DNA from: Amycolatopsis sp. 2-15
Lineage (GTDB): Bacteria > Actinomycetota > Actinomycetes > Mycobacteriales > Pseudonocardiaceae
Reading direction: 5' to 3'
DNA length: 64,000 bases
NCBI RefSeq assembly: GCF_030285625.1
Contig: NZ_CP127294.1
Coordinates: 9,370,001 to 9,434,000, forward strand
This document shows positions 14,619 through 27,837 of this stretch, piece after piece (the stretch's first letter is position 1; each line of letters begins with the position of its first letter). The notes under the pieces are model-generated. The model was not told where the DNA came from and did no database searches. It worked only from the letters and a program-made list of their open reading frames with translations. The translations under genes and the position numbers were made by a program.

Positions 14619-14951
14619 CGCCCGCGCGGCCCCGGCCCGACCACGACCGCGATCCCCGCCGCCTGCCCGCCACCGAGCTTCCGAGGGAGCCAAACCACCC
14701 AAGACGACCACCACCGACCGTGCGGCGGGGCGAGACCACCCAAGGCGACCACCGCGGGGGGACAGGGAGGCGAAACCACCCGAGGCGACCACCGCCGGCG
14801 GTCCGGCGGGGGGCGGAATCACCCAAGGCGACCACCGCGGGGGTCCGGGGGCGAAGCCCGCCGGGCGGGTTTTGGGGGTTGCACCCCCAAAAGACACCGC
14901 GGGGCGACCTGGTCCGCGCGTTCCGCGGACACACCCCACCCAGAGAACCGC
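14619..14951. repeat. non-coding tract with four ~41-bp tandem repeats
   Basis: No convincing gene. A 19-bp core close to ACCACCCAAGGCGACCACC recurs at 14694, 14735, 14775 and 14818 (steps of 41, 40 and 43 bp), separated by G-rich spacers. A strong hairpin follows at 14870. The tract sits on the chromosomal side of the attachment site and would be read as G-rich RNA from the minus strand. Confidence 0.7.
14870..14892. terminator. bidirectional hairpin terminator
   Basis: TTTTGGGGGT and ACCCCCAAAA form a perfect 10-bp stem around the 3-base loop TGC. The stem starts with T4 and ends with A4, so it can work as an intrinsic terminator in either direction. Confidence 0.6.
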
Positions 14952-14994
14952 GTGGGCGCAGCAGGGTTCGAACCTGCGACCGCTCGGGTGTAAG
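14952..14994 (-). repeat. left attachment site: displaced 3' half of tRNA-Val
   Basis: 43 bp identical to 27765-27807, covering the tRNA-Val(TAC) 3' half from the anticodon arm through the T arm to the acceptor end. The sequence stops matching after the anticodon loop, so this is not a tRNA gene. This is the scar expected when an element recombines into the 3' half of a tRNA gene. Confidence 0.92.
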
Positions 14995-15090
14995 TCAGGT
15001 GGTTCCTGTGGCTGACCTGGGAGTACGCCGTTCACCTTTGTCTGCAGGCGCCGGGTTGAACCAGGTCAGTTCATAGCTGTTCACAGCCAT

Positions 15091-15110
15091 TGATGTCGCC
15101 GACTGATGTC
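15091..15110 (+). promoter_or_regulatory. left pair of TGATGTC boxes (candidate integrase/Xis arm sites)
   Basis: TGATGTC at 15091-15097 and again at 15104-15110, a 13-bp step. The same pair with the same step occurs at the right end (27705 and 27718). Lambda-type integrases bind short arm-type repeats flanking the core, which makes this a good candidate. Confidence 0.5.
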
Positions 15111-15122
15111 ACCGCTTGATCT

Positions 15123-15347
15123 CTAGCCAGCCGCCAGCAGCCCGCCCGCGTAGCGAGTGCCACTCCTCGGACCATGCAGCGGTTGCCAGCTGCGCTCTTC
15201 TTTGGGTGGTGGCCTGACCAGGCAGACACAGGCGGTTGACATAGCGAAGGGCTCCCCGACCTGCACCGGCTCGTCTTCGGAGCCGGTGCCCAGCGCGCAG
15301 GCGAGTGCCGAGTCGAGGTCGGCCACGGCGGCTCTGCGTTCGCACAC
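15123..15347 (-). CDS. possible small hypothetical protein
   Basis: 74 aa frame from a GTG start. The first half has strong third-position G/C and an ordinary acidic composition, while the C-terminal half is Pro/Arg rich. I recognise no family and see no good ribosome site. It lies between the left attachment site and the DoxX-like gene and could be spurious. The rest of 14995-15429 shows only the TGATGTC boxes. Confidence 0.25.
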   Translation of the reverse strand: MCERRAAVADLDSALACALGTGSEDEPVQVGEPFAMSTACVCLVRPPPKEERSWQPLHGPRSGTRYAGGLLAAG

Positions 15348-15429
15348 CGGCCGGCACCGCGCCCAGCGCCGAGGAGACGCCGACGCTACAAACCTCGTGC
15401 GCGGTGATCAACCGGTCTCGGGGCGAAGC

Positions 15430-16047
15430 TCAATCGCCGCACAGCCAGCCGTACTTGCCGAGTCGTGGCCGGAGGGCGCGGTCGACGCTCCACAGGGCGT
15501 TGCCCGGCGCGGCCAGCAGGGCCAGGGCAGCGATGATGTACCCGATCGACGGGCCGATGTCGGTAGCGCCCGCCGCGAACCACGGGAGGCCGAACGCTTC
15601 CGCCGCGGACCAGATCCCGAACGAGTACACGGCGCTCCCGACATAGACCACATTGGACAGTGTGCCGGTGAGGAGGCCGACCGCGATGAGCGTTTCGACA
15701 ATGGCCGTCCCGACGCCCAGCCCCGCGGGCGCCACCGCCCCGATGTACTGCCACAGGTCGATCCACTGGCGGATGACGGGAGTGGTGACCTGGTCGTGGA
15801 TGCCGAACTGGTGCGCGAACACCTGGCCCCGCAGGAACTCAGGCCGCCACTTGAACGAGGCGTCGATCGCCCACACCACCCCGAACACGATCCGCAGCAC
15901 GCAGGCCAGCCGGCGACGCCCGGAGGACGCAGCCGCGGGCTGGTGCAGCTTCTGGTACTCCTGGGCCACCGCGTCCGTTCTGGTTTCTTCCGCGAAACCC
16001 CGACGACCGGCTCCGCCGTCGCGGGCGTGCGGTTCTTCGTGCGTCAC
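15430..16047 (-). CDS. DoxX-like integral membrane protein
   Basis: 205 aa. A charged cytoplasmic N-terminus (about 45 residues) is followed by R-I-V-F-G-V-V-W-A-I-D-A-S-F-K-W and three further hydrophobic segments (about 105-125, 130-150, 165-185). This matches the four-helix DoxX/DoxD-like fold. Related proteins are linked to quinone or thiol redox and oxidative stress, but no reaction can be assigned. It sits alone at the left end of the element, transcribed toward the attachment site. Confidence 0.72.
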   Translation of the reverse strand: MTHEEPHARDGGAGRRGFAEETRTDAVAQEYQKLHQPAAASSGRRRLACVLRIVFGVVWAIDASFKWRPEFLRGQVFAHQFGIHDQVTTPVIRQWIDLWQYIGAVAPAGLGVGTAIVETLIAVGLLTGTLSNVVYVGSAVYSFGIWSAAEAFGLPWFAAGATDIGPSIGYIIAALALLAAPGNALWSVDRALRPRLGKYGWLCGD

Positions 16048-16385
16048 TGCCGCTCACCCTCTCGACGCCCGCACCACACCCCCGCCGGTATGCCGAAGGA
16101 CCACCTCAGCGACGGGTGGGCCCGTTTTGACGAGAAAGATGTGTTCGAAAGGCCGCATCCTCGCCATCCTCCATGGCCGCCATCCCGGTGTGTAGCGCCG
16201 TGACGCCGGGCGCGGCTCCGGCGGGGACCGATCGGTGCGCTCCGGCAAGAGGCTCGATGTGGCCGAGCAGGTGGTCAGCGGCGACACAAGGCCACTCGGC
16301 AGCGGTCAGGGCAGTGTTGAAAAAGGCGAGAAACGACCAACGCCTTACCGCGGTGATGGGCGCGCTCCGGACAGCAAGCAGATCC
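16048..16385. other. gene-poor stretch upstream of the integrase remnant
   Basis: 338 bp between the DoxX-like start and the recognisable integrase fragment. A frame open on the plus strand joins the fragment from 16173 but has no family features before about 16386. No promoter or RNA gene stands out. Confidence 0.5.
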
Positions 16386-16650
16386 GGGCCGTGGAAGGCA
16401 CTGCTTCGCCTCGCCGAGGTGCGGGACGCGCGGCTGCACGATCTCCGCCACACGTCCGCGACGGTCCTGCTCGAGCTCAAGGTCCCACTTCCCGCCGTGA
16501 TGGAGCTGATGGGCTGGTCGAACGCTGCTATCGCGAAGCGGTACATGCACGTCACGAGCGAGCTGACAGCCGCGATCGCAGACCAGGTCGGCAACCACGT
16601 TTGGTACGCCGACGACGAGCGAGAGGACGAAGACGAGGACGAAGAACGGC
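16386..16650 (+). pseudogene. C-terminal remnant of a second tyrosine integrase
   Basis: About 80 residues align by eye with the catalytic C-terminus of phage-type integrases: R-L-H-D-L-R-H-T (the H-x-x-R box), M-G-W-S-N (the His/Trp position) and K-R-Y-M-H-V, which holds the nucleophilic Tyr. The N-terminal SAM-like and arm-binding domains and the first catalytic Arg are absent. The frame runs past the expected end through the hairpin at 16648. It is followed by a terminator and a tRNA-Ser 3' half, the same order as the intact int/terminator/tRNA-Val module at the right end. It differs from the intact integrase in sequence, so it comes from another element. Confidence 0.82.
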
Positions 16651-16692
16651 AGAACGCCGGGTGTCCCGTCGCGGGTCACCCGGCGTTCTGCC
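16648..16692 (+). terminator. intrinsic terminator after the integrase remnant
   Basis: A 16-bp perfect stem (GGCAGAACGCCGGGTG with its complement) encloses a 13-base loop that itself has a CCCG/CGGG core, followed by TGTT. It is placed like the terminator after the intact integrase. Confidence 0.7.
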
Positions 16693-16700
16693 TGTTAAGA

Positions 16701-16756
16701 GCGGGGGCGGTGGGATTCGAACCCACGGACGGGATTGACCGTCACACGATTTCGAG
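16701..16756 (-). pseudogene. orphan 3' half of tRNA-Ser(CGA)
   Basis: Read on the minus strand: anticodon loop C-T-CGA-A-A (16750-16756), a long class-II variable arm with GACGG/CCGTC stem, a perfect T arm (GTGGG TTCGAAT CCCAC) and the acceptor strand CGCCCCC. Upstream of the anticodon loop nothing pairs with the anticodon-stem strand, so the 5' half is missing. It is most likely a relic attachment site of the element that owned the adjacent integrase remnant. Confidence 0.8.
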
Positions 16757-16878
16757 TTCCATTCCCGGTCGTTCGGGCTGGTCCAACGCGCTTGTATGGC
16801 CTGCTCAGCCAGCTTCGTTGACTCAGGGCAACGAAAGAGGGGCGTCCACTCTACTGTCGGTGGCCCTTGAGCTGCGGC

Positions 16879-16919
16879 GGAGCTGAGGGGAATCGAACCC
16901 CTGACCTTCTCGATGCGAA
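16879..16919 (-). pseudogene. orphan 3' half of tRNA-Ala(CGC)
   Basis: On the minus strand: anticodon loop T-T-CGC-A-T (16913-16919), anticodon-stem strand CGAGA, variable AGGTC, T arm AGGGG TTCGATT CCCCT and acceptor strand CAGCTCC. The 5' half is absent. It is cut at the same place (anticodon loop) as the Val and Ser copies, as expected of tRNA-targeting integrases. No integrase remnant was found directly beside it. Confidence 0.75.
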
Positions 16920-17259
16920 CTATCAGCACGAAAGCCATTGCCGGTCTTTGCCGAGGTCAGAGGGTCGTCGCTGGTCGATCTCGGGTGCTGAGCGTCGGTG
17001 TGGTTGCTGTACTTCGCTGCTGTACGGCAACGAACCGACCCGGGAAGCAACTCGGGGTCGGACGCAGGTAGATGGGCGAGCTGCCCTGGTGACGCGGGTG
17101 GCCGGCAGGGTTCGAGCCATGGCGGGCCGAGTCACCGCCGCGCTGCTCGCCGTGTCGCCGGTCTGAGAAGCCCGGTGAACAACCGGGGATGTGGACAAGG
17201 CGTCGGTGATCACGACTACCCTCGGTGTGGCTGTGGCCACTCGAGGAGGAAGGCACGAC
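16920..17259. other. intergenic region upstream of the SAM methyltransferase
   Basis: 340 bp without a supportable gene. It contains an imperfect local duplication around 17008-17029 (GCTGTACTTC and GCTGTACGGC). The ribosome site of the next gene (GAGGAGGAAGG) is at its right edge. Confidence 0.5.
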
Positions 17260-18093
17260 ATGCCGGCAGACGCTGCTGACTTGAACGCTCCGGTCGGGGT
17301 CGATCCGCATCGGGCCAGCGTTGCGCGGATGTACGACTACGCAATGGGTGGTAAAGACTGGTACGAGGTCGACCGGGTCGAGCTCGAGCGGCTCAAGGCG
17401 GTCATGCCGGAAGCGGTGGACCTCGCGTTGGAGAACCGGCGGTTCCTGATCCGGATGTGCCGGTTCCTCGCGGAGCAGGCGGGGCTCACGCAGTACCTGG
17501 ACCTGGGGTCCGGTCTACCCACGGCGGAGAACGTGCACCAGGTGGTGCAGCGGGTCGACCCGCTGTCGAAGGTCGTCTACGTCGACCACGACCCGGTCGT
17601 GACCGCGCATGGCCGAGCGCTGCTCGAGGAGAACGAGAACACCCGCTACATCGCCGGCGACATCTTCGATCCGCGCGGCATCCTCGAGGACGAGACCGTG
17701 TGCAGCCACCTCGACTGGAGCCGGCCGATCGGGCTGCTGTTCATCGCGAGCTTGCACCACTTCAAGGGTGACCGGGCGCGCCCGGCCGAAGTCACGGCCG
17801 AGTTCATCGATGCGCTGCCTTCGGGTTCGTATGTGGCGATCTCGCATGCCTTCGACCCCGGTAAGGGTGCGGACAGCGAAGCGATGCGGGCGTTCGAAGC
17901 GGCCGTCGCCCGCGGCTCGCTCGGTGGCGTCACGGCACGGACCGCGGAGGAGATCGTCGAGCTGTTCCACGGGCTCGAACTCGTCGAACCCGGGCTGGTC
18001 GAGCTGGTCAACTGGTGGCCCTCTGGGCCGCGCCTGAAGCCGTTGAACGTCGCCCAACGACTGATGGCCGGAGCCGTCGCCCGCAAGGCCTGA
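17260..18093 (+). CDS. SAM-dependent methyltransferase, DUF574 (Methyltransf_19) family
   Basis: 277 aa from the ATG at 17260, preceded by the strong site GAGGAGGAAGG. A Rossmann methyltransferase: N-terminal A-R-M-Y-D-Y-A-M-G-G-K-D is the hallmark of this actinobacterial family; the SAM loop is Y-L-D-L-G-S-G-L-P-T near residue 82, followed by V-Y-V-D-H-D-P-V and S-L-H-H-F. The family is abundant in Actinobacteria, and the substrates are mostly unknown. It lies inside the element between relic tRNA fragments and the IS remnant and may be older cargo. Confidence 0.88.
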   Translation: MPADAADLNAPVGVDPHRASVARMYDYAMGGKDWYEVDRVELERLKAVMPEAVDLALENRRFLIRMCRFLAEQAGLTQYLDLGSGLPTAENVHQVVQRVDPLSKVVYVDHDPVVTAHGRALLEENENTRYIAGDIFDPRGILEDETVCSHLDWSRPIGLLFIASLHHFKGDRARPAEVTAEFIDALPSGSYVAISHAFDPGKGADSEAMRAFEAAVARGSLGGVTARTAEEIVELFHGLELVEPGLVELVNWWPSGPRLKPLNVAQRLMAGAVARKA

Positions 18094-18394
18094 TCGGCTC
18101 CATGCCTGCTCTCTGCAAATTACGCCGCAGTCGGTCGAGGTGGTCGCACACTTTTGGTAGCCACCCTGAGACTTGATTTGCAGGGAGAGTGCCTCAGTGC
18201 GATGACCAGCGCATCGCAGCACATCCCCCTCGGTGCGGCCACACAAACGCAAACGCTTGTCATAGATGGTCGTCTTCGGGTAGTTGGAATCGAATTGCGG
18301 GGGTAAAGCGGTAATGGTCTCAGTCTGAATACGACGACCTGACCCTGCGCGGCGCGATGACCCGCACGGCCGGAAGGCGCGCACACTGGGGTCC
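18094..18394. other. low-GC intergenic stretch, possible gene relic
   Basis: 300 bp of clearly lower GC than the flanks. On the minus strand one frame reads about 65 residues of normal-looking composition (for example Q-F-D-S-N-Y-P-K-T-T-I-Y-D-K-R-L-R-L-C-G) before merging into the shadow of the methyltransferase. It has no start and no family I recognise, so it may be a fragment of a lost gene. Confidence 0.35.
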
Positions 18395-18874
18395 ATGGCA
18401 TGGGAGTGGGTCGCCCCCGCAGCTACAGTCCTCGTCGGCGCCACAGCTACATGGGGGACCACAAGGGTCGCGGTCAGCGGGCGAAAGCACGCAGAGCAAA
18501 TCGCCCGGACGTCGACTGAGGCCAGCATGCGCATTAGCTATCAAGAACGGCTATCAACATTCTTAATTGAAGCCTCAGAGACGATGGTTCTCGGGGTGCC
18601 GTCAATCGGCCGCCCTACTTCGCTGACGGTGCCCTTGGAGTCACGGCCAAGCTACGTGGAGCTCCAGCGCACATACGCTCGCCTGTTGGTTTACGCACCG
18701 CCGGAACTTGCGCAGGCGTACTGGGACTGGAAGTCGCTCTACCTCGCGTTGAGCGGATCGAGCGGAGCGACCGCTGAAGAGTGGTTTGCAGAGGCGGAGC
18801 GCCTGTCCGGCTTGCGACAAGTTTTCATTGGCCTAGCCAACGACCTACTGTCACCCAACTCCACAACCGACTGA
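18395..18874 (+). CDS. hypothetical protein with N-terminal membrane segment
   Basis: 159 aa. A hydrophobic segment at residues 5-24 (W-V-A-P-A-A-T-V-L-V-G-A) is followed by a short basic stretch and a soluble, mainly helical domain of about 130 residues rich in E, Y and L. The topology looks like a single-pass anchor with a cytoplasmic domain. I do not recognise the family. Codon use is less GC-rich than chromosomal neighbours, fitting element cargo. Confidence 0.65.
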   Translation: MAWEWVAPAATVLVGATATWGTTRVAVSGRKHAEQIARTSTEASMRISYQERLSTFLIEASETMVLGVPSIGRPTSLTVPLESRPSYVELQRTYARLLVYAPPELAQAYWDWKSLYLALSGSSGATAEEWFAEAERLSGLRQVFIGLANDLLSPNSTTD

Positions 18875-19244
18875 CGAGCGGTCCGATGACAGGCTGATCT
18901 GCCAGATGATTTCCGCCAGCACTCTCAAGTGCGGCCGTAGAGGCAGCGCTCACGTCGTTATGGAGTATGGCTCGCCGCAGTCAATCGGTCGTTGCTGGAT
19001 CCAAGTCGTCCCCATAGTCCCTATCGCGGACACACTCCTGCGCTGCTGACATCGCAATCCGTCGCGTTGCGTGAGCTGTGCTCAACGACGATGCGGTAGT
19101 CGCCTGCGGAAGGCGGTCCGATGTCGCACATCAGGCCTGGACGAGGCGTCGGGGCCCACCCGCCCCTTGACTACTGTTCTGGTTTCGCAGCTGGCGTAGT
19201 GCACTTATTCGAACCGAGCGGTATTCCTTGGTTCTGAACGGCTG
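18875..19244. other. gene-free low-GC stretch before the transposase remnant
   Basis: 370 bp without an ORF of real appearance on either strand, probably degraded IS or element DNA. No inverted-repeat IS end could be identified with confidence. Confidence 0.45.
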
Positions 19245-19528
19245 TCCACGCTGCTGGCGTTCTATAACTAGCCGGCCGAACACTGGATCACCTGCGCACG
19301 ACCAATCCGATCGAGGCGACCTTCGCACCGTGCGCCACCGCACCAGACTTCCCAAAGGGGGCCCGGCTCCCGCGGGCCGGGCTGGCCATGGCGTTTAAGC
19401 TCATCGAGTCCGCCCAGGCCCGCTGGCGCGCAGTGAACGCATCTCACCTCGTACGCTCTTCTCCGCGCAGGCGTTACTTCAACAACGGCCAGCTCGTCGA
19501 GCGGCTGGGAGAGGCGGTGGCCTCGTGA
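19245..19528 (+). pseudogene. IS256-family (Mutator-type) transposase C-terminal remnant
   Basis: From 19289 the frame reads H-L-R-T-T-N-P-I-E-A-T-F, then G-L-A-M-A-F-K-L-I-E-S-A-Q-A-R-W-R-A-V-N-A and F-N-N-G-Q-L-V-E-R, the classic C-terminus of IS256-type DDE transposases. Immediately upstream another frame gives L-L-A-F-Y and P-A-E-H-W-I, also from this family but separated by a TAG (19266-19268) and a 1-base deletion near 19288. The N-terminal catalytic domain is gone. It cannot move by itself. The stop overlaps the next start (GTGA). Confidence 0.85.
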
Positions 19529-19914
19529 GCACGCCATCCCACCCGACCAGCAGCACGCGTCAGTGGCCGACCGACAAGCTAACCGCGCTGCGACTCGGCC
19601 AGCGACTGGTCGCCGAGCGGCCAGTCTCTCGACCGGGCCGGCGAGCATTCATCGACATCACACCGCTCATCACCGCAGCGGACACGGAAGCCCGCCGCCA
19701 AGGCTGGAAACGAGCCGACCACGCCCGCACCTTCACACTCCAGCACTGGGACTACGCCGCTGACCGCCTCGACAGCTTCGACTACGACGTCGGCGCAATC
19801 CTGATCAAGACCGCGACCGTCGTCGGTGAACCGGACCTGACCTCCACCCTCGAAGCGTGGCACCTACACCCGGAACAATTCCTCTACCCCTGGCAGACCG
19901 GCGACCCACAGTAG
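19525..19914 (+). CDS. hypothetical protein
   Basis: 129 aa from a GTG overlapping the transposase stop. Soluble, Arg/Thr-rich N-terminus, then a compact C-terminal part with several aromatic residues (L-Q-H-W-D-Y-A-A-D, F-L-Y-P-W-Q). No family recognised. Coding bias is good, so it is probably real. Its start inside the IS relic suggests that the original 5' end may have been replaced. Confidence 0.55.
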   Translation: MSTPSHPTSSTRQWPTDKLTALRLGQRLVAERPVSRPGRRAFIDITPLITAADTEARRQGWKRADHARTFTLQHWDYAADRLDSFDYDVGAILIKTATVVGEPDLTSTLEAWHLHPEQFLYPWQTGDPQ

Positions 19915-20188
19915 CCACACGGGCCACCGGAATGTCGGGTCGGACAAACTCGCGCCCGATTGTCGCCCTGGATTCGTGTCGCAGGTCAGTGGCCTGTCCA
20001 GCTGGAGGGGACAACCGGGCGGGATCGGTTACGCTCCGCGGCGTTGCATCTAACACAACATCGATTCATCTAGTACAGGCAGGGGTGCTGACCAGCATCG
20101 CAGTCCGCTGCGGCCAACCGGCGGCACTGCCTGGTACGTTCCTTGACCAGCGAAGACCCGGTGGAAACCGAGTGCATCAATGTTGCAT

Positions 20189-21106
20189 CTACTCGAATAA
20201 ATCGTGAACGCGCACGACGGCCACTCGATGCCGGTATCGGCCCAGTTCGAAGGCTCGGTCCGCGCGTGCTTCGACCACCACGCCGGGTTCGACTGGCCAG
20301 TACGTGAAGTCCTCGGAACCGAGGCGGCCGGCGAGAATCCCGGAGGCTCGCTGCGGTCCGCTCTCGGTGAGCCGAAGCCGACCGGCCAGCGACGCAAGCG
20401 CTGTCCGTGACAGCGGCCCCGACAGACCGACCGCACGCACCCGCCCGCGCCGGTCGGTCTGGCCGAGCACCAGCGCGGTTGGCCGGGCGGGGCTGCCGGT
20501 CACGCCGAGCACAACGGCGTCGATGTCGTCGTAGTGGCGCACCTTCACCCACCCGGCGCGGCCACCGCGCAGCGGGTACCGGCTGGCCAGTGGCTTCGCC
20601 ACGGCCCCCTCGATACCGACGGCCGCCTGGTCTGCACTGATCCACTCCCGACCCTGGGCGACATCAAGCGTTGAGATCATCAGCTGCACGCCGGCGTTGC
20701 CCGCGCCAACCACTGCGGCCAGCCGCTCACGCCGGCGCGACAGCGGCCACAACCGCAGGTCACGGCCGCGAGCACCGAGCAAGTCGAACGCCACGAACAC
20801 GACGGCGATGCCCTCGGCGCGGCGCCGGCCCGGGCCGTACCCGAGCGCTGCGAACTCCAGCCGACCCTGCCGGTATGCGCACAACTCGCCGTCGAACACC
20901 ACCCGGCCCAGCGCAGCCGCCGACTCGAGAATCCCCGGGAACCGGTCCGTCAGGTCACCGCCAGTGCGGGACTGCAGCACCCAACCCGGCACGTGCACCA
21001 CACACCGCCACCCATCCAGCTTCGGCGAGTACTCAAACGCGCCCGTGGGCAGCACCGCGGCCGGTTCGACCACAGCGAGCCTCAGCGGCAGTTCCGGCAC
21101 GGGCAT
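20189..21106 (-). CDS. ATP-dependent DNA ligase (LigC/LigD-like adenylation plus OB domains)
   Basis: 305 aa. Nucleotidyltransferase motifs in order: motif I K-L-D-G-W-R (adenylated Lys) near residue 32, motif III F-D-G-E-L near 75, motif IV V-A-F-D-L-L near 108, motif V E-G-A-V-A-K-P near 175 and W-V-K-V-R near 195, then an OB-fold tail. It seals nicks with ATP; such stand-alone ligases act in bacterial end-joining and repair, and here it may serve the element. No Ku gene is nearby. ATG at 21106 is chosen because longer starts run into the divergent gene at 21159. Confidence 0.85.
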   Translation of the reverse strand: MPVPELPLRLAVVEPAAVLPTGAFEYSPKLDGWRCVVHVPGWVLQSRTGGDLTDRFPGILESAAALGRVVFDGELCAYRQGRLEFAALGYGPGRRRAEGIAVVFVAFDLLGARGRDLRLWPLSRRRERLAAVVGAGNAGVQLMISTLDVAQGREWISADQAAVGIEGAVAKPLASRYPLRGGRAGWVKVRHYDDIDAVVLGVTGSPARPTALVLGQTDRRGRVRAVGLSGPLSRTALASLAGRLRLTESGPQRASGILAGRLGSEDFTYWPVEPGVVVEARADRAFELGRYRHRVAVVRVHDLFE

Positions 21107-21158
21107 GTGTCCATCGTGAACCCCGTTGACCAGCGGCGCAGCCCGTAGCATCGCACGC

Positions 21159-21521
21159 ATGTTCGAAGCTCGGCGACCTAGCAGTGAGTTCGGCAGCACG
21201 GACCTCCCGGTGCGGCCGGCGCTGCGGCACGAGCTGAACCCCGACGGGTCGCTCACCATCCACCCACCCCGGCACTGCCCGCGCCAGCACCCCGTGCCCG
21301 ACTCGGGCTCGTTCTCGTGGATCGTGGCACTGCACCTGCACGCGCTCGACTGCCACCGTTGCCGCGACGAGGGCAACACCGAGCACCAGTGGGCCCTCAT
21401 CGACCCCGCCTACGAACAGGCCGACGTGGAGGAGGCCACGAGGGCGGGGTTAGAACTCCTCGTCGTGCCCCCAGACGAGGGAGCCAGACCCGGCCGGATC
21501 GAACTGCACCTGGACGGCTAA
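21159..21521 (+). CDS. hypothetical protein with Cys/His cluster
   Basis: 120 aa from the ATG at 21159. Central part has H-C-P near residue 39, then H-L-H-A-L-D-C-H-R-C-R near residues 58-68, a spacing that could bind a metal. The C-terminus is acidic. It begins 53 bp from the divergent ligase start, so the two share a promoter region, and no ribosome site is visible upstream (possibly leaderless). No family recognised. Confidence 0.6.
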   Translation: MFEARRPSSEFGSTDLPVRPALRHELNPDGSLTIHPPRHCPRQHPVPDSGSFSWIVALHLHALDCHRCRDEGNTEHQWALIDPAYEQADVEEATRAGLELLVVPPDEGARPGRIELHLDG

Positions 21522-21632
21522 GCGATCGGTGCAGCCACCCTCGCCGTGTGTCCCCGCCGACGAGCACACCGCACTCGACCACGCCCGCCTCGGGCAGAAC
21601 GAGAACCCCGGATGGACACAGGAGATCGCCGC

Positions 21633-21842
21633 ATGAGCACACGACTGAACCTCCACGCCCGCGAGCAGCTGCGCGCCGCCGGGATCAGCCAAGCCCAATG
21701 GGCACGGCAGTACTTCGGGGACGGCCGGTGGCACGGCGACGAGTGCGGATGCCCCGACGATCGCTGCATCGGCTTCCACCACGACGCCGAAGACGACTGC
21801 GGATGCCTGCCCGCGTTGCTGGACGAGAACGGAGGCCGCTGA
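21633..21842 (+). CDS. small Cys-rich protein coupled to the C5 methyltransferase
   Basis: 69 aa from the ATG at 21633 with AGGAGA upstream. N-terminal half resembles a short helix-turn-helix-like stretch (A-A-G-I-S-Q-A-Q-W-A-R-Q-Y); the C-terminal half has C-G-C-P-D-D-R-C, F-H-H-D and D-C-G-C, a likely zinc site. The stop overlaps the methyltransferase start (TGATG), so the two are translationally coupled. Function unknown; a partner or regulator of the methyltransferase is possible. Confidence 0.65.
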   Translation: MSTRLNLHAREQLRAAGISQAQWARQYFGDGRWHGDECGCPDDRCIGFHHDAEDDCGCLPALLDENGGR

Positions 21843-23493
21843 TGTACACGATGACCGACCTGTTCTGCGGCGCCGGCGGCTCCGGGCTCGGGGCCACGTC
21901 GGTGCCTGGGGTGGAGCTGCGGATGGCGGCGAACCACAGCCCGCGCGCGATCGAGACCCACGAGACGAACTTCCCCGACTGCAAGCACGACTGCGCGGAT
22001 ATCTCGCAGGTGGTGCCGCGGCGTTACGAGCGGACCAACATCTTGTGGGCCTCCCCGGAGTGCACGAACCACTCGATCGCCAAGGGCCGCCGCCGCGCCG
22101 CGCCGGGGCAGGCGTCGCTGTTCGACGACGAGGTGCCCGATCACGTGGCCGAGCGGTCACGGGCGACGATGTGGGACGTGCCGCGCTTCGCCGAGGCCCA
22201 CCGCTACGACGTAGTGATCGTGGAGAACGTGGTCGACGCGGTGAAGTGGGAGCCGTTCCGGGCGTGGCTGCTGGCGATGGACTCCTACGGCTACGACCAC
22301 CACATCGTGTCGCTGAACTCGATGCACGCCCCCGCGATCGCCGCGCCGCGGGCGCCTCAGAGCCGGGACCGGATGTACGTGGTGTTCTGGCGCAAGGGAA
22401 ACCCGCGCCCGAACCTCGACATCCGCCCGCAGGCCTACTGCCCGGCCTGCGACATGGTCGTCGAGGCGGTGCAGTCGTTCAAACCGGGCCGCGAGGTCGG
22501 CCGCTACCGGCAGCAGTACGTGTACCGGTGCCCGCGCTTCGCCAAGTGCAAGACCGTGGTTGAGCCGTTCGCGCTGCCGGCGGCGGCGGTGATCGACTGG
22601 TCCAACCAGGGCCAGAGGATCGGGGACCGCGACAAGCCGCTGTCGGACAAGACCCTTGCGCGCATCGAGGCCGGGCTGGCCCGCTACGGCCGGCCGATGA
22701 CGTTCGAGGCCACCGGCAACACCTTCGTGCGCCCGGGCTCCGGGTACGCGCGGGCGTGGCCGGCGGACTGGCCCACCGCGACGCTGACGACCTCACACAC
22801 CCGGGCGCTGCTCGTGCCCAGCGGCGGCACCCGCAACGAAGACGCCCGCCCGGTGGGCGAGCCGTTCCGCACCCGCACCACCAGCGAGTGGGAGGCCTGC
22901 TGGTGCCGCTGGAGGGCCGCGAGGGCAAACAGGCCGCGTCCACCGGGATGCCGATGCGCACGCAGACCGCACGGCACGAGACGGCGCTGGTGGTGCCCTA
23001 CTACTCGACCGGCGTCGCGCACCCCGCCGACGTGCGGGCGATGCCGACGATGACCACAGTGGACACCGCCGGGCTGGCGTTCGTGGCCGAGCTGCGCGGC
23101 GGCGGCTCGACCGCGCGCGACGTGCGCGAGCCGCTGGCGACGGTGTGCGCGTCGGGCAATCACCACATGCTTGTGCGCCACAACTCCAGCCGCGGCCCGG
23201 GCGGAGAGATGTGCACCCCGGTCGCCGAACCCGCCCGCAAACTCACCACCACCGGGCACCAGTCCCTCGTCGGCTGGCCCGCAGCGGCGCCGGCGGTGGA
23301 GGACTGCTCGTTCCGGATGCTCACCGTTCCCGAGGTCCAGGCCGCCATGGCCTTCACCCCCGACTACGTCATCACCGGGAACAAGCGCGAAGCCATCCGC
23401 CAGCTCGGCAACGGCGTCACCCCGCCCGCCGCCGAATGGCTCGTCACCGCCGCCGTCGACTCGCTCGAACGCACCACCCGCCGCGCCGCCTGA
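21842..23493 (+). pseudogene. C5 cytosine-specific DNA methyltransferase, frameshifted
   Basis: Motif I is D-L-F-C-G-A-G-G-S-G-L-G at the N-terminus, the catalytic motif IV reads S-P-E-C-T-N-H-S (P-E-C in place of the common P-C-Q, still with the nucleophilic Cys), motif VI is E-N-V and motif VIII is Q-S-R-D-R. The frame from 21842 runs to 23053, but family features continue in another frame (22756-23493) ending with motif X G-N-G-V-T-P-P-A-A. Restoring one missing base near 22885-22900 gives one protein of about 550 aa. The region between holds roughly six degenerate 33-35-residue repeats, probably the target-recognition domain. No restriction endonuclease gene is adjacent. Confidence 0.85.
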
Positions 23494-23627
23494 CACCGCA
23501 CCCGTTGCGGTCGCTGTCGTCGCGCTTGCTCGATGGGAGATCCCCATTGTTCGTCTCGGACACCCGGCTGTGTCATCGCAAGACGTTGCCGCGGGCGATC
23601 GCGCCGGTGACCGGTGTGATCAGAACG

Positions 23628-23984
23628 CTACGGTCGGAGCCGTTCGAGCTGAGGATCGTAGCAAACCAATCCGTGGTCCGCAGCGAGTTGAGCAGCCCAG
23701 GCGGAGACCTCCTCACACCTGCTCCACACCATCGGGAAGTAGATCAACGGTCCGACTGCCTCGGTAAGCAGCGGCGAGGTCGACCAAGGGCTGTCTTCGC
23801 CGTCTTGCTCGCTGATATCCGGGTAGCGATCGAGCAGCGCCGAGACGAAAGCACGGATGCGGTCCGAGGGTGGTTCCTGAACGTCGGACTCGATGTGGCG
23901 CTCATACAGCAAACCAAAAGCGTCGCCGGCCGCCTGGTCACTGGGCGGACGGTCGCCCTCCCACACCGCCAAGTCATAACTCAT
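23628..23984 (-). CDS. conserved hypothetical protein (M-S-Y-D-L-A-V-W-E type)
   Basis: 118 aa from the ATG at 23984. Begins M-S-Y-D-L-A-V-W-E-G, contains D-R-Y-P-D-I near residue 55 and ends with H-G-L-V-C-Y-D-P-Q. I recall this as a common actinobacterial small-protein type without assigned function. It is acidic, soluble and opposite in orientation to its neighbours. An immunity-like role is only a guess. Confidence 0.7.
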   Translation of the reverse strand: MSYDLAVWEGDRPPSDQAAGDAFGLLYERHIESDVQEPPSDRIRAFVSALLDRYPDISEQDGEDSPWSTSPLLTEAVGPLIYFPMVWSRCEEVSAWAAQLAADHGLVCYDPQLERLRP

Positions 23985-24175
23985 ACGTGGAGCATGCCAG
24001 CGGCACCGCGCACATTCATCAGCACCCACGCGAGCACCTGCACTGCCTACTCAGCTGGTGAGCCGCGCTCGCCGCGATGCTGCCCCGCCGTCAGGCCGAG
24101 CAACTCACGCTCTTGGACGACACGGCGGCCTGACCACCTCGCGCGCTCCGCTGCACTGCTCGATTGGAGATCCTC

Positions 24176-25759
24176 ATGTCCAGCCAGCCGAATCCAGGCC
24201 GCCCGCTGTGGGCGGTGAATGCCGAAGGGCGTCCGCGCGTGCGGGTCGGGGAGGACCCCGAGGCGATCCGCGTGCTCACCGACGCGGTGAACCGCCGGAT
24301 CATCCCCGAGACCTACGTCTCGGACGGGGCTCCGGTGGTGGTCGAGGAGATTTCCGGGGCCGCCGACCCCGCCACCGCCGAAGACGACGTCGCACTGCCG
24401 ATCGTCGCCTCGGTGCTCAAGCCGCCCCTGCTGGCCGGGTTGCTGGCCGAGCATGCGGAGGTGTTCCGGCCGAAGAAGGTCGGCGAGAACTGGGTGGACA
24501 CCGAGGTGACCCCGCCCGGGCCCGTGCTGGGAGCCGTTTTGGCGCGCCAGTCCTGGCCCGGGCTGCCGGTCTTGCGACGCATCATCTCCACCCCCGTGCT
24601 GCGCCCGGACGGCACCCTGCTGCAGGAACCCGGCTACGACCCGGCGACCGGGTTCTACCTCGCCGGCAACCACCACCTCGCCCCGATCCCGGACCACCCG
24701 ACACCACAGGAAGTCGCGCAGGCCCGCGAGTTCCTGTTCGAACGGTTCCTGCGCGACTTCCCGTGGCGCACCGACGCCGACCGCGCGAACTACCTCGCCC
24801 TGCTGGTCACACCGCTGATCCGGCCGTTCACCCGCGCGCTGTCCCCGTTCGGGATGATCGAGGCCTCCATGCCCGGCTCCGGCAAGACCATCCTCGCCGG
24901 CTGCGTCGGACTCCTGGTCGGACAGCGGGTGCTGACCTGGACCGACTCCGAAGACGAACTCCGGAAATCGATCACAACGGTGCTGTCCGACGCCGTCGGG
25001 GTGATCGTGTTCGACAACCTCGCCGAAGGCGCCGTCGTCGACTCCGCCGTGCTCGCCCGCCTGGTCACCGAACGGACCTGGTCCGACCGCAAGCTCGGCA
25101 CCAACGCCGCCGCGACGTTCCCGAACGACCGGCTGTGGCTCGCGACCGGGAACAACCTGCGCACCGGCGGCGACATGGCGTCCCGGTCGGTGTGGGTGCG
25201 GCTCGACCCGAACTGCCCCCGCCCCGAAACCCGCACCGGGTTCACCATCCCCAACCTCGACACCTGGATCCTCGACCCCGCCAACCGCGCCACCGTGCTA
25301 CGCCACGTCCTGATCCTGATCCTCGACTGGACCGCCCACGGCGCTTCACCGGCCACCGCGGTCCCGCAGATGCGCCAGTTCACCCCCTGGGCCCGACACC
25401 TCGGCGGGTTCCTCGAACACCACGGCGTGCGCGGGTTCCTCACCAACGCCGACGCCACCCGCGACCTCGACGACGAAGACGCCGAATGGCGATCGTTCTT
25501 CCTCACCTGGGAGGAGCTCCACGGCGACCGACACATGACCGCACAGGACCTGCGGATCAGCGGCGAACCCACCGCCGGCACCGACCCCTGGGCCGGGACA
25601 TTCCCGGTCACGCCCTCCGGAAAGCCGCTCACCACCAAGAGCCTCGGCAGGAAGCTGGCAGGGCAGGTGGACCGCTGGCACACCGACGTCGTGTTACGCA
25701 GCGAAGTCGACAGCCACCGCAACTGCAAAACCTACTGGGTAGTACGCAACGACTCCTAG
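24176..25759 (+). CDS. P-loop ATPase, probable replication protein of the element
   Basis: 527 aa from the ATG at 24176 with GGAGA upstream. The N-terminal 200 residues are unrecognised. An ATPase core follows: Walker A S-M-P-G-S-G-K-T near residue 233, Walker B-like V-I-V-F-D-N-L near 278 and sensor-like A-T-G-N-N-L near 322. This pattern fits phage/plasmid helicase-like ATPases that load on origins. It lies immediately before an iteron array and ahead of xis and int, the usual place of a Rep gene in actinobacterial integrative elements. No primase domain is visible. The replication role is inferred from context. Confidence 0.7.
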   Translation: MSSQPNPGRPLWAVNAEGRPRVRVGEDPEAIRVLTDAVNRRIIPETYVSDGAPVVVEEISGAADPATAEDDVALPIVASVLKPPLLAGLLAEHAEVFRPKKVGENWVDTEVTPPGPVLGAVLARQSWPGLPVLRRIISTPVLRPDGTLLQEPGYDPATGFYLAGNHHLAPIPDHPTPQEVAQAREFLFERFLRDFPWRTDADRANYLALLVTPLIRPFTRALSPFGMIEASMPGSGKTILAGCVGLLVGQRVLTWTDSEDELRKSITTVLSDAVGVIVFDNLAEGAVVDSAVLARLVTERTWSDRKLGTNAAATFPNDRLWLATGNNLRTGGDMASRSVWVRLDPNCPRPETRTGFTIPNLDTWILDPANRATVLRHVLILILDWTAHGASPATAVPQMRQFTPWARHLGGFLEHHGVRGFLTNADATRDLDDEDAEWRSFFLTWEELHGDRHMTAQDLRISGEPTAGTDPWAGTFPVTPSGKPLTTKSLGRKLAGQVDRWHTDVVLRSEVDSHRNCKTYWVVRNDS

Positions 25760-25774
25760 AGCAACCGCCAAAAG

Positions 25775-25982
25775 AAACCCGCAAACCCGCAAAAGATCTT
25801 GTTGTAACTCTCTCACCAGGGAAAACAAGGTCTGACAGGGTTGCGGGTTTGTTCGATCATGAATCCCTCCAAACCCGCAAACCCGCGGGTTTGCGGGTTT
25901 CTCCCACCACCCCCGGATGAGAAACCCGCAAGCAAAACCCCAGGTCAACGGCCACTTTGCGGGTTTGCGGGTTTGCGGGTTT
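25775..25982. repeat. iteron array with a 30-bp palindrome, candidate element origin
   Basis: Octamer AAACCCGC (or its complement GCGGGTTT) occurs 11 times: forward at 25775, 25783, 25871, 25879, 25922; reverse at 25843, 25885, 25893, 25959, 25967, 25975. Several copies are directly tandem (8-bp period). Positions 25871-25900 form a perfect 30-bp palindrome made of two forward and two reverse octamers. Location right after the Rep-like ATPase gene fits a replication origin or an autoregulatory Rep-binding region. Confidence 0.7.
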
Positions 25983-26340
25983 CTCCACGGCCCCGACGCC
26001 CCAGACCCGCCAAAGCCGCACCCCCCACCTGCCAGCACACAGCCGCCACGACCACGCACCGTGAGCAGAAAGGAACATCAGTTCGGACGAGACAGCAGAA
26101 GCCGCCGAGGTCGTCACGCTCGTTCCGCGACCTGCACTCAACCCCCAACCACGAATCCTGCTGACGGTCGAACAAGCCGCAGAACGACTGCCCGGTGGAG
26201 TCGCTCGGATGGCGGCTGTGCCCACCCCTCTCTGCCAGCCTGCCAGCCCGGCAGGCATCCAACGTAACCGCCCTGTCGTCTCGCAGCCGGCGCCGCCCGG
26301 CCATCTCGTCATGCCCGCTCGATCCGAAAGGTTCACCACC
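25983..26340 (+). other. intergenic region with a decayed excisionase-like start
   Basis: In the frame that later becomes xis, 26080-26205 reads T-L-V-P-R-P-A-L-N-P-Q-P-R and R-I-L-L-T-V-E-Q-A-A-E-R-L, which resembles the start of an HTH_17 excisionase. The following sequence has lost the helix-turn-helix. AGAAAGGAAC precedes it, but no standard start codon is in frame. Probably a relic of a second xis-like gene. Confidence 0.4.
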
Positions 26341-26547
26341 ATGAGCACCGCTCCCACCGAGCATGAACCGCTGCTGTTGCGAGTCGAAGAGGCCGCCCGC
26401 TTGCTCAGCATCGGCCGAACTCGCGTCTACGACCTGGTCCGCAGTGGAGCGCTGAAGTCCGTGAAGGTCTTCGGCGCCCGGCGGATCCCGCGCGTCTCGA
26501 TCGACAGCTACATCGCCACCCTGATGCAGGAATCGGAGGCCGCCTGA
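26341..26547 (+). CDS. xis: excisionase / HTH_17 DNA-binding protein
   Basis: 68 aa from the ATG at 26341 with AAAGG upstream. Single MerR-like winged HTH: L-L-R-V-E-E-A-A-R-L-L-S-I-G-R-T-R-V-Y followed by the wing R-R-I-P-R-V-S. These small proteins bend attachment-site DNA and turn the integrase toward excision. The stop overlaps the integrase start (TGATG), so they are translated together. Confidence 0.85.
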   Translation: MSTAPTEHEPLLLRVEEAARLLSIGRTRVYDLVRSGALKSVKVFGARRIPRVSIDSYIATLMQESEAA

Positions 26548-27707
26548 TGCCACGCCGCGCCGCGAACGGCCTGGGAACCATCGTCAAGCGGGCGGACGGC
26601 CGCTACCAGGCCGCCGTCTACGTGCTCACCACGACCGGTGAGCGCAAACGCAAGTTCGTCTACGGGAAGACCTGGGAGGAGGTCAACGACAAGCGAGTCG
26701 AGATGCTCGACAACAACCGCAAGGGCGTCCCGTCGATCTCCTCGAACATGAAGCTCGGGGACTACCTCGACTATTGGCTGGAGGAGATCATCAAGGTCGA
26801 CCGCGGGCCGTCGACCTACTCCGGCTACGAGATCGTCGTCCGCCGCTACATCAAGAAGCATCTGGGGACCAAACGGCTCAATGCGCTGACCCCCGCGCAC
26901 GTCCGGGCGTTCGTGGCGAAGCTGCGGAAGGAAAAGACGGTCCTGGGCAAGCCTCTTTCGGACCGGTACGTGCAGAACGTGTTCGAAACGCTGCGCAGCG
27001 CGCTTAGCGCCGCGATGCGCGAGGAGCTGATCGGCCGCAACGTGGCCCGGCTGGTCGAGACGCCCTCGCGCGGTTCCTTCGAGGTGGAGCCGCTTTCGGA
27101 GGTGCAGGCCAGGGCGTTCGTGAAGGTGGCAGCCGAGCACTGGCTGTACGCCCTCTGGCTGATCCTGATCACCAGCGGCCTGCGCAAGGGCGAGGTCCTG
27201 GGCCTCGCCTGGTCCGACATCGACATGGAAACCGGCGCGTTCCGTGTCCGGCGGACCGTCCAGCGGGTGCGCGGCCGGCTGGAGTTCGGGAAGACGAAGA
27301 CGAAGAAGTCCACCCGTTCGCTCTACCTCGGCCGCGTCTGCCTCGCCGCGCTGGCCCGGCACCGGGAGGAGACCGCAAAGCGCCTGAGTTCGACGCTGAA
27401 CCCCGCGCCGGGTCAGCCGGATGACCTGATCTTCGTGACCAGCTCGGGGCGGGTGTTCGAGCCGAGGAACGTCAACACGATGCTCCAGCGGCTGCTACGC
27501 CACGCTGGGCTCGATCCAGCACGCGTGCATGACTTGCGTCACACCGCAGCCACGCTGCTGCTGATGGACGGCGCCACGATCCGGGAGGTGATGGAGCAGC
27601 TGGGCCACGCGTCGATCGCGACGACCGCCAACATCTACGGGCACGTCTTGGACGACGCCAAGCGCAGGATGGCAGCCCGGATGGACCGGCTGGCGGACGA
27701 CGACTGA
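26547..27707 (+). CDS. int: tyrosine-type site-specific integrase
   Basis: 386 aa, full-length phage/AICE type. Arm-binding AP2-like N-terminus (G-L-G-T-I-V-K-R-A-D-G-R-Y, residues 8-55), SAM-like core-binding domain (about 65-165) and a C-terminal catalytic domain with the first Arg in T-S-G-L-R-K-G-E (near 214), H-D-L-R-H-T (near 329), G-H-A-S (near 353) and nucleophile Tyr in N-I-Y-G-H (near 363). It recombines the element into the 3' half of tRNA-Val. All catalytic residues are present, so it looks functional. A strong terminator and the tRNA follow. Confidence 0.96.
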   Translation: MPRRAANGLGTIVKRADGRYQAAVYVLTTTGERKRKFVYGKTWEEVNDKRVEMLDNNRKGVPSISSNMKLGDYLDYWLEEIIKVDRGPSTYSGYEIVVRRYIKKHLGTKRLNALTPAHVRAFVAKLRKEKTVLGKPLSDRYVQNVFETLRSALSAAMREELIGRNVARLVETPSRGSFEVEPLSEVQARAFVKVAAEHWLYALWLILITSGLRKGEVLGLAWSDIDMETGAFRVRRTVQRVRGRLEFGKTKTKKSTRSLYLGRVCLAALARHREETAKRLSSTLNPAPGQPDDLIFVTSSGRVFEPRNVNTMLQRLLRHAGLDPARVHDLRHTAATLLLMDGATIREVMEQLGHASIATTANIYGHVLDDAKRRMAARMDRLADDD

Positions 27708-27724
27708 TGTCAATCGGTGATGTC
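27705..27724 (+). promoter_or_regulatory. right pair of TGATGTC boxes (candidate arm sites)
   Basis: TGATGTC at 27705-27711 and 27718-27724, the same 13-bp step and orientation as the left pair at 15091/15104. The first box overlaps the int stop codon. Confidence 0.5.
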
Positions 27725-27726
27725 AG

Positions 27727-27758
27727 CAGGGCCCCCAATGATCTTGGGGGCCCTGTTT
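27727..27758. terminator. terminator between int and tRNA-Val
   Basis: CAGGGCCCCCAA and TTGGGGGCCCTG form a perfect 12-bp stem with a 5-base loop, followed by TTT. It terminates int and, from the other strand, the tRNA-Val transcript. Confidence 0.85.
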
Positions 27759-27762
27759 CCGC

Positions 27763-27837
27763 TGGTGGGCGCAGCAGGGTTCGAACCTGCGACCGCTCGG
27801 GTGTAAGCCGAGTGCTCTTCCGCTGAGCTATGCGCCC
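27763..27837 (-). tRNA. tRNA-Val(TAC), intact, with encoded CCA
   Basis: Cloverleaf folds fully on the minus strand: acceptor GGGCGCA/TGCGCCC, D stem GCTC/GAGC, anticodon stem CTCGG/CCGAG with loop CT-TAC-AC, T arm GCAGG TTCGAAC CCTGC, discriminator A and encoded CCA. Its 3' half (27765-27807) is supplied by the element and restores a functional gene, so integration is not harmful. Confidence 0.97.
27765..27807 (-). repeat. right attachment site (43-bp direct repeat)
   Basis: Identical to 14952-14994. The crossover must lie within these 43 bp, most likely in the anticodon arm as for other tRNA-targeting tyrosine integrases. Confidence 0.92.

Follow-up and report, generated by a model that had tools for sequence, protein, structure and literature searches.

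A tRNA-Val-integrated element of Amycolatopsis sp. 2-15 with a RepA-type ATPase and an iteron-like array, probably a reduced AICE

Actinomycete integrative and conjugative elements (AICEs) are recognized by site-specific integration at a tRNA 3' end with direct repeats, an integrase and an excisionase, an FtsK/SpoIIIE-like Tra (PF01580) and a replication module (RepSA, RepAM, or a Prim-Pol with a partner). We analysed a 64-kb window of the Amycolatopsis sp. 2-15 genome (one contig, 10.05 Mb; the window is G000:C1:9370001-9434000, and coordinates below refer to it unless marked as genomic), in which a 12.8-kb segment lies between tRNA-Val(tac) and a partial copy of this gene. The segment has the tRNA integration site, the repeats, the integrase and the excisionase and, of the replication module, a RepA-type partner followed by an array; Prim-Pol was not found, and Tra is absent by Pfam and tblastn. 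Overall, we suggest that this is very probably a reduced (remnant) AICE, descended from an ancestor like the 28.6-kb AICE of a congener (G102; G and L numbers are our labels for genomes and loci), with Tra and Prim-Pol lost.

The AICE class with Prim-Pol and RepPP (the SLP1-like SCO4617/SCO4618 operon; Ghinet et al. 2011, PMC3218068) shares with the window element, as far as the accessible text of that paper goes, integration at a tRNA 3' end, a direct repeat, a tyrosine Int, an Xis and a replication gene of the type that neighbours Prim-Pol. The window element differs in having neither an FtsK-like Tra nor a Prim-Pol and in its size, 12.8 kb against 22-29 kb for its relatives in the genus. 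This was the sole paper found on SCO4618 with SLP1; most subscription papers lay outside our literature search, here and below. The literature on remnant AICEs and DAICEs offers a similar picture of an integrated tRNA element without tra, with decay, accretion and relics at one site. However, DAICEs, as presented in the available part of PMC9513070, retain traB and miss another signature, whereas the window element has no Tra.

For the free plasmid pWTY27 (NC_013667; PMC3583192), the accessible text reports that replication needs repA, repB (which encodes a predicted primase/polymerase) and, just 3' of repA, an iteron region of 300 bp, none of them being dispensable, and that RepA binds the iteron in vitro. 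The window element shares a RepA homologue and octamers in two orientations immediately 3' of its gene, but it is integrated and RepB (Prim-Pol) is missing. In the integrative plasmid pCM32 of Saccharopolyspora endophytica (NZ_KM260754) the order is Prim-Pol, ATPase (69% identical to that of the window), an array of nine AAACCCGG units, a helix-turn-helix gene and an integrase, and the part from ATPase to integrase is arranged as in the window. pCM32 retains the Prim-Pol and, at the tra position, a large gene annotated as a zonular occludens toxin domain protein; the window element has neither. This integrative plasmid is reportedly the subject of a paper by Chen et al. from 2015. In the literature searched it occurred only as a reference within PMC12701044.

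An insertion in tRNA-Val(tac) and its fuller relatives

The segment is bounded, as the original prediction had it, by an exact 43-bp repeat of the tRNA-Val 3' half (spacing 12,813 bp; Table 1), and for such an exact pair the chance expectation is ~4e-15 (64 kb, the window's composition); the repeat search listed the pair as a 50-nt family at 94%. tRNA-Val(tac) is the single tRNA that ARAGORN finds in the window. Empty tRNA-Val sites, proposed earlier as a check, were found in four congeners (G073, G009, G034 and G028), where the two flanks of the element join at tRNA-Val(tac), ~0.1-1.4 kb from each other; in G028 one match spans from the left flank to the attachment sequence. These four empty sites show that the 12.8-kb segment is an insertion. 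The tRNA-AhpE site is present in 60/60 genus genomes searched (host genome included). Among 30 tRNA-Val loci fetched (the host's included), 27 had no match to eight integrase queries within 1.5 kb; the three with a match belong to the host genome, G075 and G074. An integrase at E ≤ 1e-80 is found in only four of 80 genus genomes: the host (G000), G074, G102 and G075. On a small contig of G074 the right end abuts the left end at one attachment-site (att) copy, and this junction is either tandem elements or a circular form.

Paired TGATGTC boxes, candidate arm-type integrase sites, lie with 13-bp spacing at both ends of the window element. The left-end pair is alike in spacing and place in G102, and the right-end pair is alike in spacing in G102 and G075. 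The motif is not confined to the ends: the window holds ten copies on both strands, four of them at the element ends. Just outside the element, in the left flank at 14686-14850, a 41-nt repeat occurs four times and has several matches at the equivalent place in G075 (L056).

In G102, tRNA-Val holds a 28.6-kb AICE (5101-33748 of the oriented stretch) that resembles the window element at the left end (82% over 164 bp), in the methylase (82% nt), Int (93% aa) and Xis (70%), and in the right flank. Its ATPase is 74% identical to that of the window and is likewise followed by an array. Its middle encodes an FtsK-like Tra of 773 aa and a Prim-Pol of 311 aa, both named by homology to relatives. Methylase, ATPase, Xis and Int are its only proteins that match the window element at E ≤ 1e-3 (Int also matches an integrase relic there), and ~6.5 kb in the middle of the window element has no match to the G102 element. 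The term remnant AICE, for a close relative of a complete AICE that lacks tra or rep, fits the window element by way of this same-site AICE; with no Tra it is neither an AICE proper nor a DAICE in the sense of PMC9513070.

Tra and Prim-Pol homologues also accompany the ATPase in the elements of G001, G008, G017, G035 and one G027 copy; the stretch with the second G027 copy ended before tra. The G001 pair, the only one checked with Pfam, matches PF01580 (6e-6, Tra) and PF09250 (5e-40, Prim-Pol). Elements with both att copies measure 24.6 kb (G001), 22.5 kb (G008), 28.5 kb (G017) and 25.4 kb (G027 unit); no such pair was found in the stretch fetched for G035. Among 85 loci that encode this ATPase, the window's included and many of them fetched with short flanks, a Prim-Pol gene lies in the fetched stretch of 72 and an FtsK-Tra gene in that of 49. 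The G027 unit occurs twice in tandem at tRNA-Phe (L012, L013; 99.9% over the 10.6 kb compared), which is either a genuine tandem or an artefact of assembly.

The lack of an FtsK-like Tra, already claimed in the original prediction, was borne out in all searches of the element. In Pfam searches of 20 open reading frames (ORFs), 14 from the element and six from the flanks and partly in overlapping frames, nothing matched FtsK/Tra, Prim-Pol, another AICE Rep or a relaxase; the set omits three short element ORFs. With tblastn, four Tra and three Prim-Pol relatives matched nothing better than E = 0.015, and seven Tra and two Prim-Pol queries nothing at E ≤ 0.01. No convincing cluster resembling clt, the target of Tra, was found in the element, by a weak test in which a repeat stood out after tra in three of seven elements (0, 0 and 4 of 300 shuffles; two-letter hexamers excluded). 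After tra of G102, AAGTGC has six copies (0/300 shuffles), against at most one per 250 bp in the window element. The only other 6-mer cluster of the element that reaches six is GGTCGA, six times in 250 bp (17352-17601), inside the Methyltransf_19 gene.

Related integrases occur in ten other genomes of the family. Seven were examined, leaving out G266 and G263 (contigs too short toward the element) and G151 (match at the contig end). Their integrases (57-74% identity) adjoin tRNA-Asn (five), tRNA-Ala and tRNA-Pro, and in six an FtsK-like match lies ~4 kb upstream of the end of int; none was found in G185. Four tRNA-Asn elements with both att copies measure 11.5-13.0 kb (the G137 repeat falls short of its tRNA and is not counted among the att pairs). 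Since six of the seven relatives have an FtsK-like gene, the absence of Tra is no trait of this integrase lineage.

The RepA-type ATPase and the array behind it

Int, Xis, an array and a P-loop ATPase had been placed at the right end, and all four were found there. The ATPase aligns with pWTY27 RepA (40% over 441 aa, 7e-94) and is, to judge from this homology, RepA-like and a relative of that protein. It matched no Pfam or NCBIfam model; in PHROGs its C-terminal half matches a phage DNA polymerase/primase family (1.4e-64). In the predicted structure (pLDDT 85.4, 37 sequences) the C-terminus looks winged-helix-like from secondary structure. Foldseek matches the model to D5-type primase-helicases (PrimPol-helicases) including that of SaPI5 (TM about 0.3-0.45 by query length); a profile sequence search against solved structures gave no match. 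The predicted fold of the ATPase part resembles the SaPI5 primase-helicase (PDB 7ola) at 10-13% identity and a TM of about 0.35-0.48 only.

Matches to the ATPase were found in seven of 60 relatives searched, host genome included. Full-length relatives occur in G001, G008, G017, G027 (twice) and G035, adjoining tRNA-Val(gac), Arg, Leu, Phe and Arg, and a broken one in G020. The host carries a second, broken RepA-family piece (genome 5389469-5389894, L018; 64% over residues 6-147, with an internal stop), perhaps left by an AICE that decayed earlier.

The array and its place immediately 3' of a repA homologue correspond to the pWTY27 arrangement, RepA binding here being putative; RepB Prim-Pol was not found in the element by tblastn. 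Because pWTY27 requires RepB, self-replication of the window element seems unlikely. One Prim-Pol-domain protein is encoded elsewhere in the host genome (2299 kb). The labels "iteron array" and "replication-like" given in the original prediction look right, although the missing Prim-Pol partner had been overlooked.

The single strand of 25760-25999 folds far below shuffles (z -7.4), which the inverted repeats of the array would lead one to expect. In 82 of 87 loci, which span many actinobacterial genera, and in 75 of 80 named genome records (L092-L171), an array of an 8-9-bp unit in both orientations directly follows the ATPase stop. An array was called when its top 8-mer exceeded the maximum of 30 shuffles by more than one; the duplicates L095 and L168 count among the 87 and were dropped before trees were built, and L099, L101, L133, L160 and L165, with no array called, were excluded from the unit classes. 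By loci, the units are AAACCCGC (9), AAACACCGC (5), AAACCCCGC (5), ATCTCCGCA (48), ATCTCGGCA (6) and nine single types. G102 has AAACACCGC, which differs from the AAACCCGC of the window. The unit of the RepA-plus-array pair varies by group, and this could help to predict origins.

We compared the units with four proteins in the 32 loci that have ATPase, Prim-Pol, Tra and Int (the window, without Tra and Prim-Pol, is excluded). The fewest unit-class changes were 10 on the ATPase tree, 11 on Prim-Pol, 12 on Tra and 15 on Int; unit labels shuffled on the ATPase tree gave a mean of 16.1 and a minimum of 13 in 100. The area under the curve (AUC) with which identity predicts a shared unit was 0.845 for ATPase, 0.839 for Prim-Pol, 0.850 for Tra and 0.481 for Int. 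In the 12 AAAC-unit loci it was 0.615, 0.568, 0.584 and 0.420, and in the other 20 loci 0.474 (chance level) for ATPase, 0.611 for Prim-Pol and 0.700 for Tra. On this wide scale the statistics separate ATPase, Prim-Pol and Tra from Int, not ATPase from Prim-Pol or Tra. Within Amycolatopsis, some pairs have a unit that follows the ATPase rather than Tra or Int, but linkage of ATPase and array alone could yield this covariation. Since covariation does not single out the ATPase, we call the array a putative iteron and origin by homology to pWTY27.

Two other roles for the array were considered. A Tra target (clt) was judged unlikely within Amycolatopsis: L012 and L015/L016 have Tra proteins 94/93% identical and different units, whereas G102 and L015/L016 share the unit with ATPases 94/93% and Tra proteins only 34/28% identical. 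Integrase arm sites were likewise judged unlikely, given the TGATGTC boxes at the ends and a G102 Int that is alike while the array unit differs. The word "iteron" does not occur in the accessible text of PMC3218068, the sole match in the literature searched for at least two of AICE, iteron and Prim-Pol.

Relics and cargo inside the element

The leftmost gene of the element encodes a hypothetical protein of 205 aa. To its right lie a truncated integrase and pieces of tRNA-Ser(cga) and tRNA-Ala(cgc), then the Methyltransf_19 gene, the DNA-ligase-like gene and that of a small AICE protein, and finally the frameshifted C5 methylase, the ATPase with its array, Xis and Int (Table 1).

Table 1. Features of the window element and its attachment sites (window coordinates)
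Feature	Position	Strand	Basis and remarks
tRNA-Val(tac), attachment gene	27763-27837	-	ARAGORN; 3' end 27763; direct repeat 27765-27807
Distal attachment-site copy, 43 bp of tRNA-Val(tac) 3' half	14952-14994	-	exact repeat of 27765-27807
Two TGATGTC boxes, left end, candidate arm-type integrase sites	15091-15110	+	starts 15091, 15104
Hypothetical protein, 205 aa, cargo	15430-16047	-	codon-usage gene call; no Pfam match
Relic, C-terminal piece of another tyrosine integrase	16392-16604	+	PF00589 7e-11
Relic, tRNA-Ser(cga) 3' half	16701-16743	-	3 mismatches vs genome 2146021-2146063
Relic, tRNA-Ala(cgc) 3' half	16879-16912	-	exact copy of part of tRNA-Ala(cgc) gene, genome 2751043
SAM-dependent methyltransferase (Methyltransf_19), cargo	17191-18093	+	PF04672 1.4e-79
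ATP-dependent DNA ligase-like protein, cargo	20189-21106	-	PF01068 6e-14; start per codon-usage gene call
Small AICE protein, 69 aa	21633-21842	+	relatives 68% (G001 element), 63% (G008 element)
C5-cytosine DNA methylase gene, frameshifted near 22894	21842-23493	+	G102 methylase aligns in two frames, 82% + 81%
RepA-type replication ATPase, 527 aa, P-loop; predicted D5-like helicase fold, winged-helix-like C-terminus	24176-25759	+	homology, model
Iteron-like array, 11 octamers AAACCCGC/GCGGGTTT, both orientations	25775-25982	.	maximum of 30 shuffles 2
Excisionase (Xis)	26341-26547	+	PF12728/HTH_17 5e-12; TIGR01764 above cut-off
Tyrosine integrase (Int), 386 aa, full length	26547-27707	+	PF00589 2.8e-28
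Two TGATGTC boxes, right end, candidate arm-type sites	27705-27724	+	starts 27705, 27718

The integrase relic is 52% identical over 71 aa to the integrase of the G027 tRNA-Phe element. The genomic counterpart of the tRNA-Ser fragment falls within the tRNA-Ser(cga) found in L091. At 16392-16912 the ends of two other tRNA-targeted elements are fused side by side, an integrase C-terminus with the tRNA-Ser(cga) 3' half, then the tRNA-Ala(cgc) 3' half. A further exact copy of the latter lies at genome 2789389, 38 kb from 2751043 and in opposite orientation; close by are an FtsK-like gene and, adjoined by an integrase homologue, tRNA-Arg(cct). An inversion between the two copies is possible. Defence cargo was rejected, as a PADLOC search of ten element proteins showed methylase-domain matches alone.

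Origin of the element and what it means

We suggest that an ancestor like the G102 element integrated in tRNA-Val(tac) through its tyrosine integrase and left the 43-bp copy 12.8 kb away, as the repeat and the empty sites indicate. The middle, with FtsK-like Tra, Prim-Pol (RepB) and accessory genes, would then have been lost, an order of events that we infer; by comparison, the ends of other tRNA-targeted elements now lie within the unmatched middle. Since both attachment ends, the candidate arm sites, Int and Xis are kept, excision to a circle is plausible. By homology to pWTY27, RepA would be the initiator/helicase and the array the origin, yet a circle without Prim-Pol is predicted to be unable to replicate alone. 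Without Tra there would be no self-transfer, and spread would now be vertical or passive. The frameshifted methylase and the tRNA-Ser, tRNA-Ala and integrase pieces are signs of decay that support a remnant.

Several observations weigh against this origin. The window ATPase is nearer to that of G001 (85%) than to that of G102, and the array unit is unlike that of G102; the ancestor was therefore not identical to the G102 element. The G102 ATPase is in turn 94% identical to that of G035, and modules thus recombine between elements. Int and RepA are full length, and the Int dN/dS against G102 Int is 0.09 (Xis is less constrained, 0.59), and the element is therefore not wholly dead, though most of the elapsed time may predate the gene loss. 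Moreover, tRNA-Val of G075 holds a 10.0-kb element whose integrase is of like type (75%) and whose ATPase differs (AAA_25); tblastn, and Pfam on 10 of 13 called genes, revealed neither FtsK nor Prim-Pol in it. Tra-less elements at tRNA-Val are not unique, and a small, mobilised type is thus conceivable. Such a satellite would excise by its own Int and Xis, and a complete AICE in the same cell would replicate and carry it with the Tra (and Prim-Pol) of that AICE. Int and Xis of full length, arm-like boxes at either end, the retained RepA and array and the second Tra-less element in G075 speak for it, as do possible helpers in the host genome: FtsK-like genes that neighbour AICE-type genes at 2783, 3705, 4529 and 7476 kb, the one at 4529 kb 39% identical over 536 aa to Tra of this AICE family and those at 2783 and 3705 kb with an integrase homologue alongside. 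We nevertheless consider a satellite improbable, given the weak but negative clt test with its scarce AAGTGC, the sole Prim-Pol found elsewhere, whose link to an AICE would be hypothetical, the frameshifted methylase, and the FtsK-like genes that six of seven examined family relatives with this integrase carry themselves.

Together, the lack of Tra, the lack of a convincing clt and these six relatives leave transfer of the window element, own or borrowed, not supported. The original prediction had wavered between a mobilisable element that borrows transfer and a reduced AICE; the fuller AICE of G102 at the same tRNA and the frequency of Prim-Pol and FtsK-Tra genes beside this ATPase favour the latter, and the former lost ground with neither relaxase nor Tra found. 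Less probable still is a rearranged stretch in which an older scar accounts for the tRNA fragment at 14952 and the intervening DNA consists of the remains of several elements. The tRNA and integrase pieces inside, a GC content of 0.63-0.70 along the segment against 0.70-0.71 in the flanks, and the G074 junction would suit such accretion. However, the left end inside the repeat matches that of G102 and the arm-box spacing is alike, and both ends therefore belong to one element type.

If the element were, against the odds, a live satellite of complete AICEs, with a RepA-iteron origin supplied with primase and moved by a resident AICE of the same class, the G075 element would be an independent case and tRNA-Val a niche for satellites much as with phage-inducible islands; no paper joining AICE with satellite was found in the literature searched. 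As a reduced AICE, our preferred reading, it would be a clean case of AICE decay in one genus, where a fuller relative and a broken descendant share tRNA and integrase and empty sites are found as well. The window element is otherwise a rather ordinary AICE remnant, and the widespread RepA-plus-array pair may matter more: an AICE-class ATPase beside Prim-Pol, matched by no Pfam or NCBIfam model, is now tied to pWTY27 RepA. Because this ATPase is a relative of pWTY27 RepA and an array directly follows it in nearly all loci, the array predicts where the replication origin of these elements would lie.

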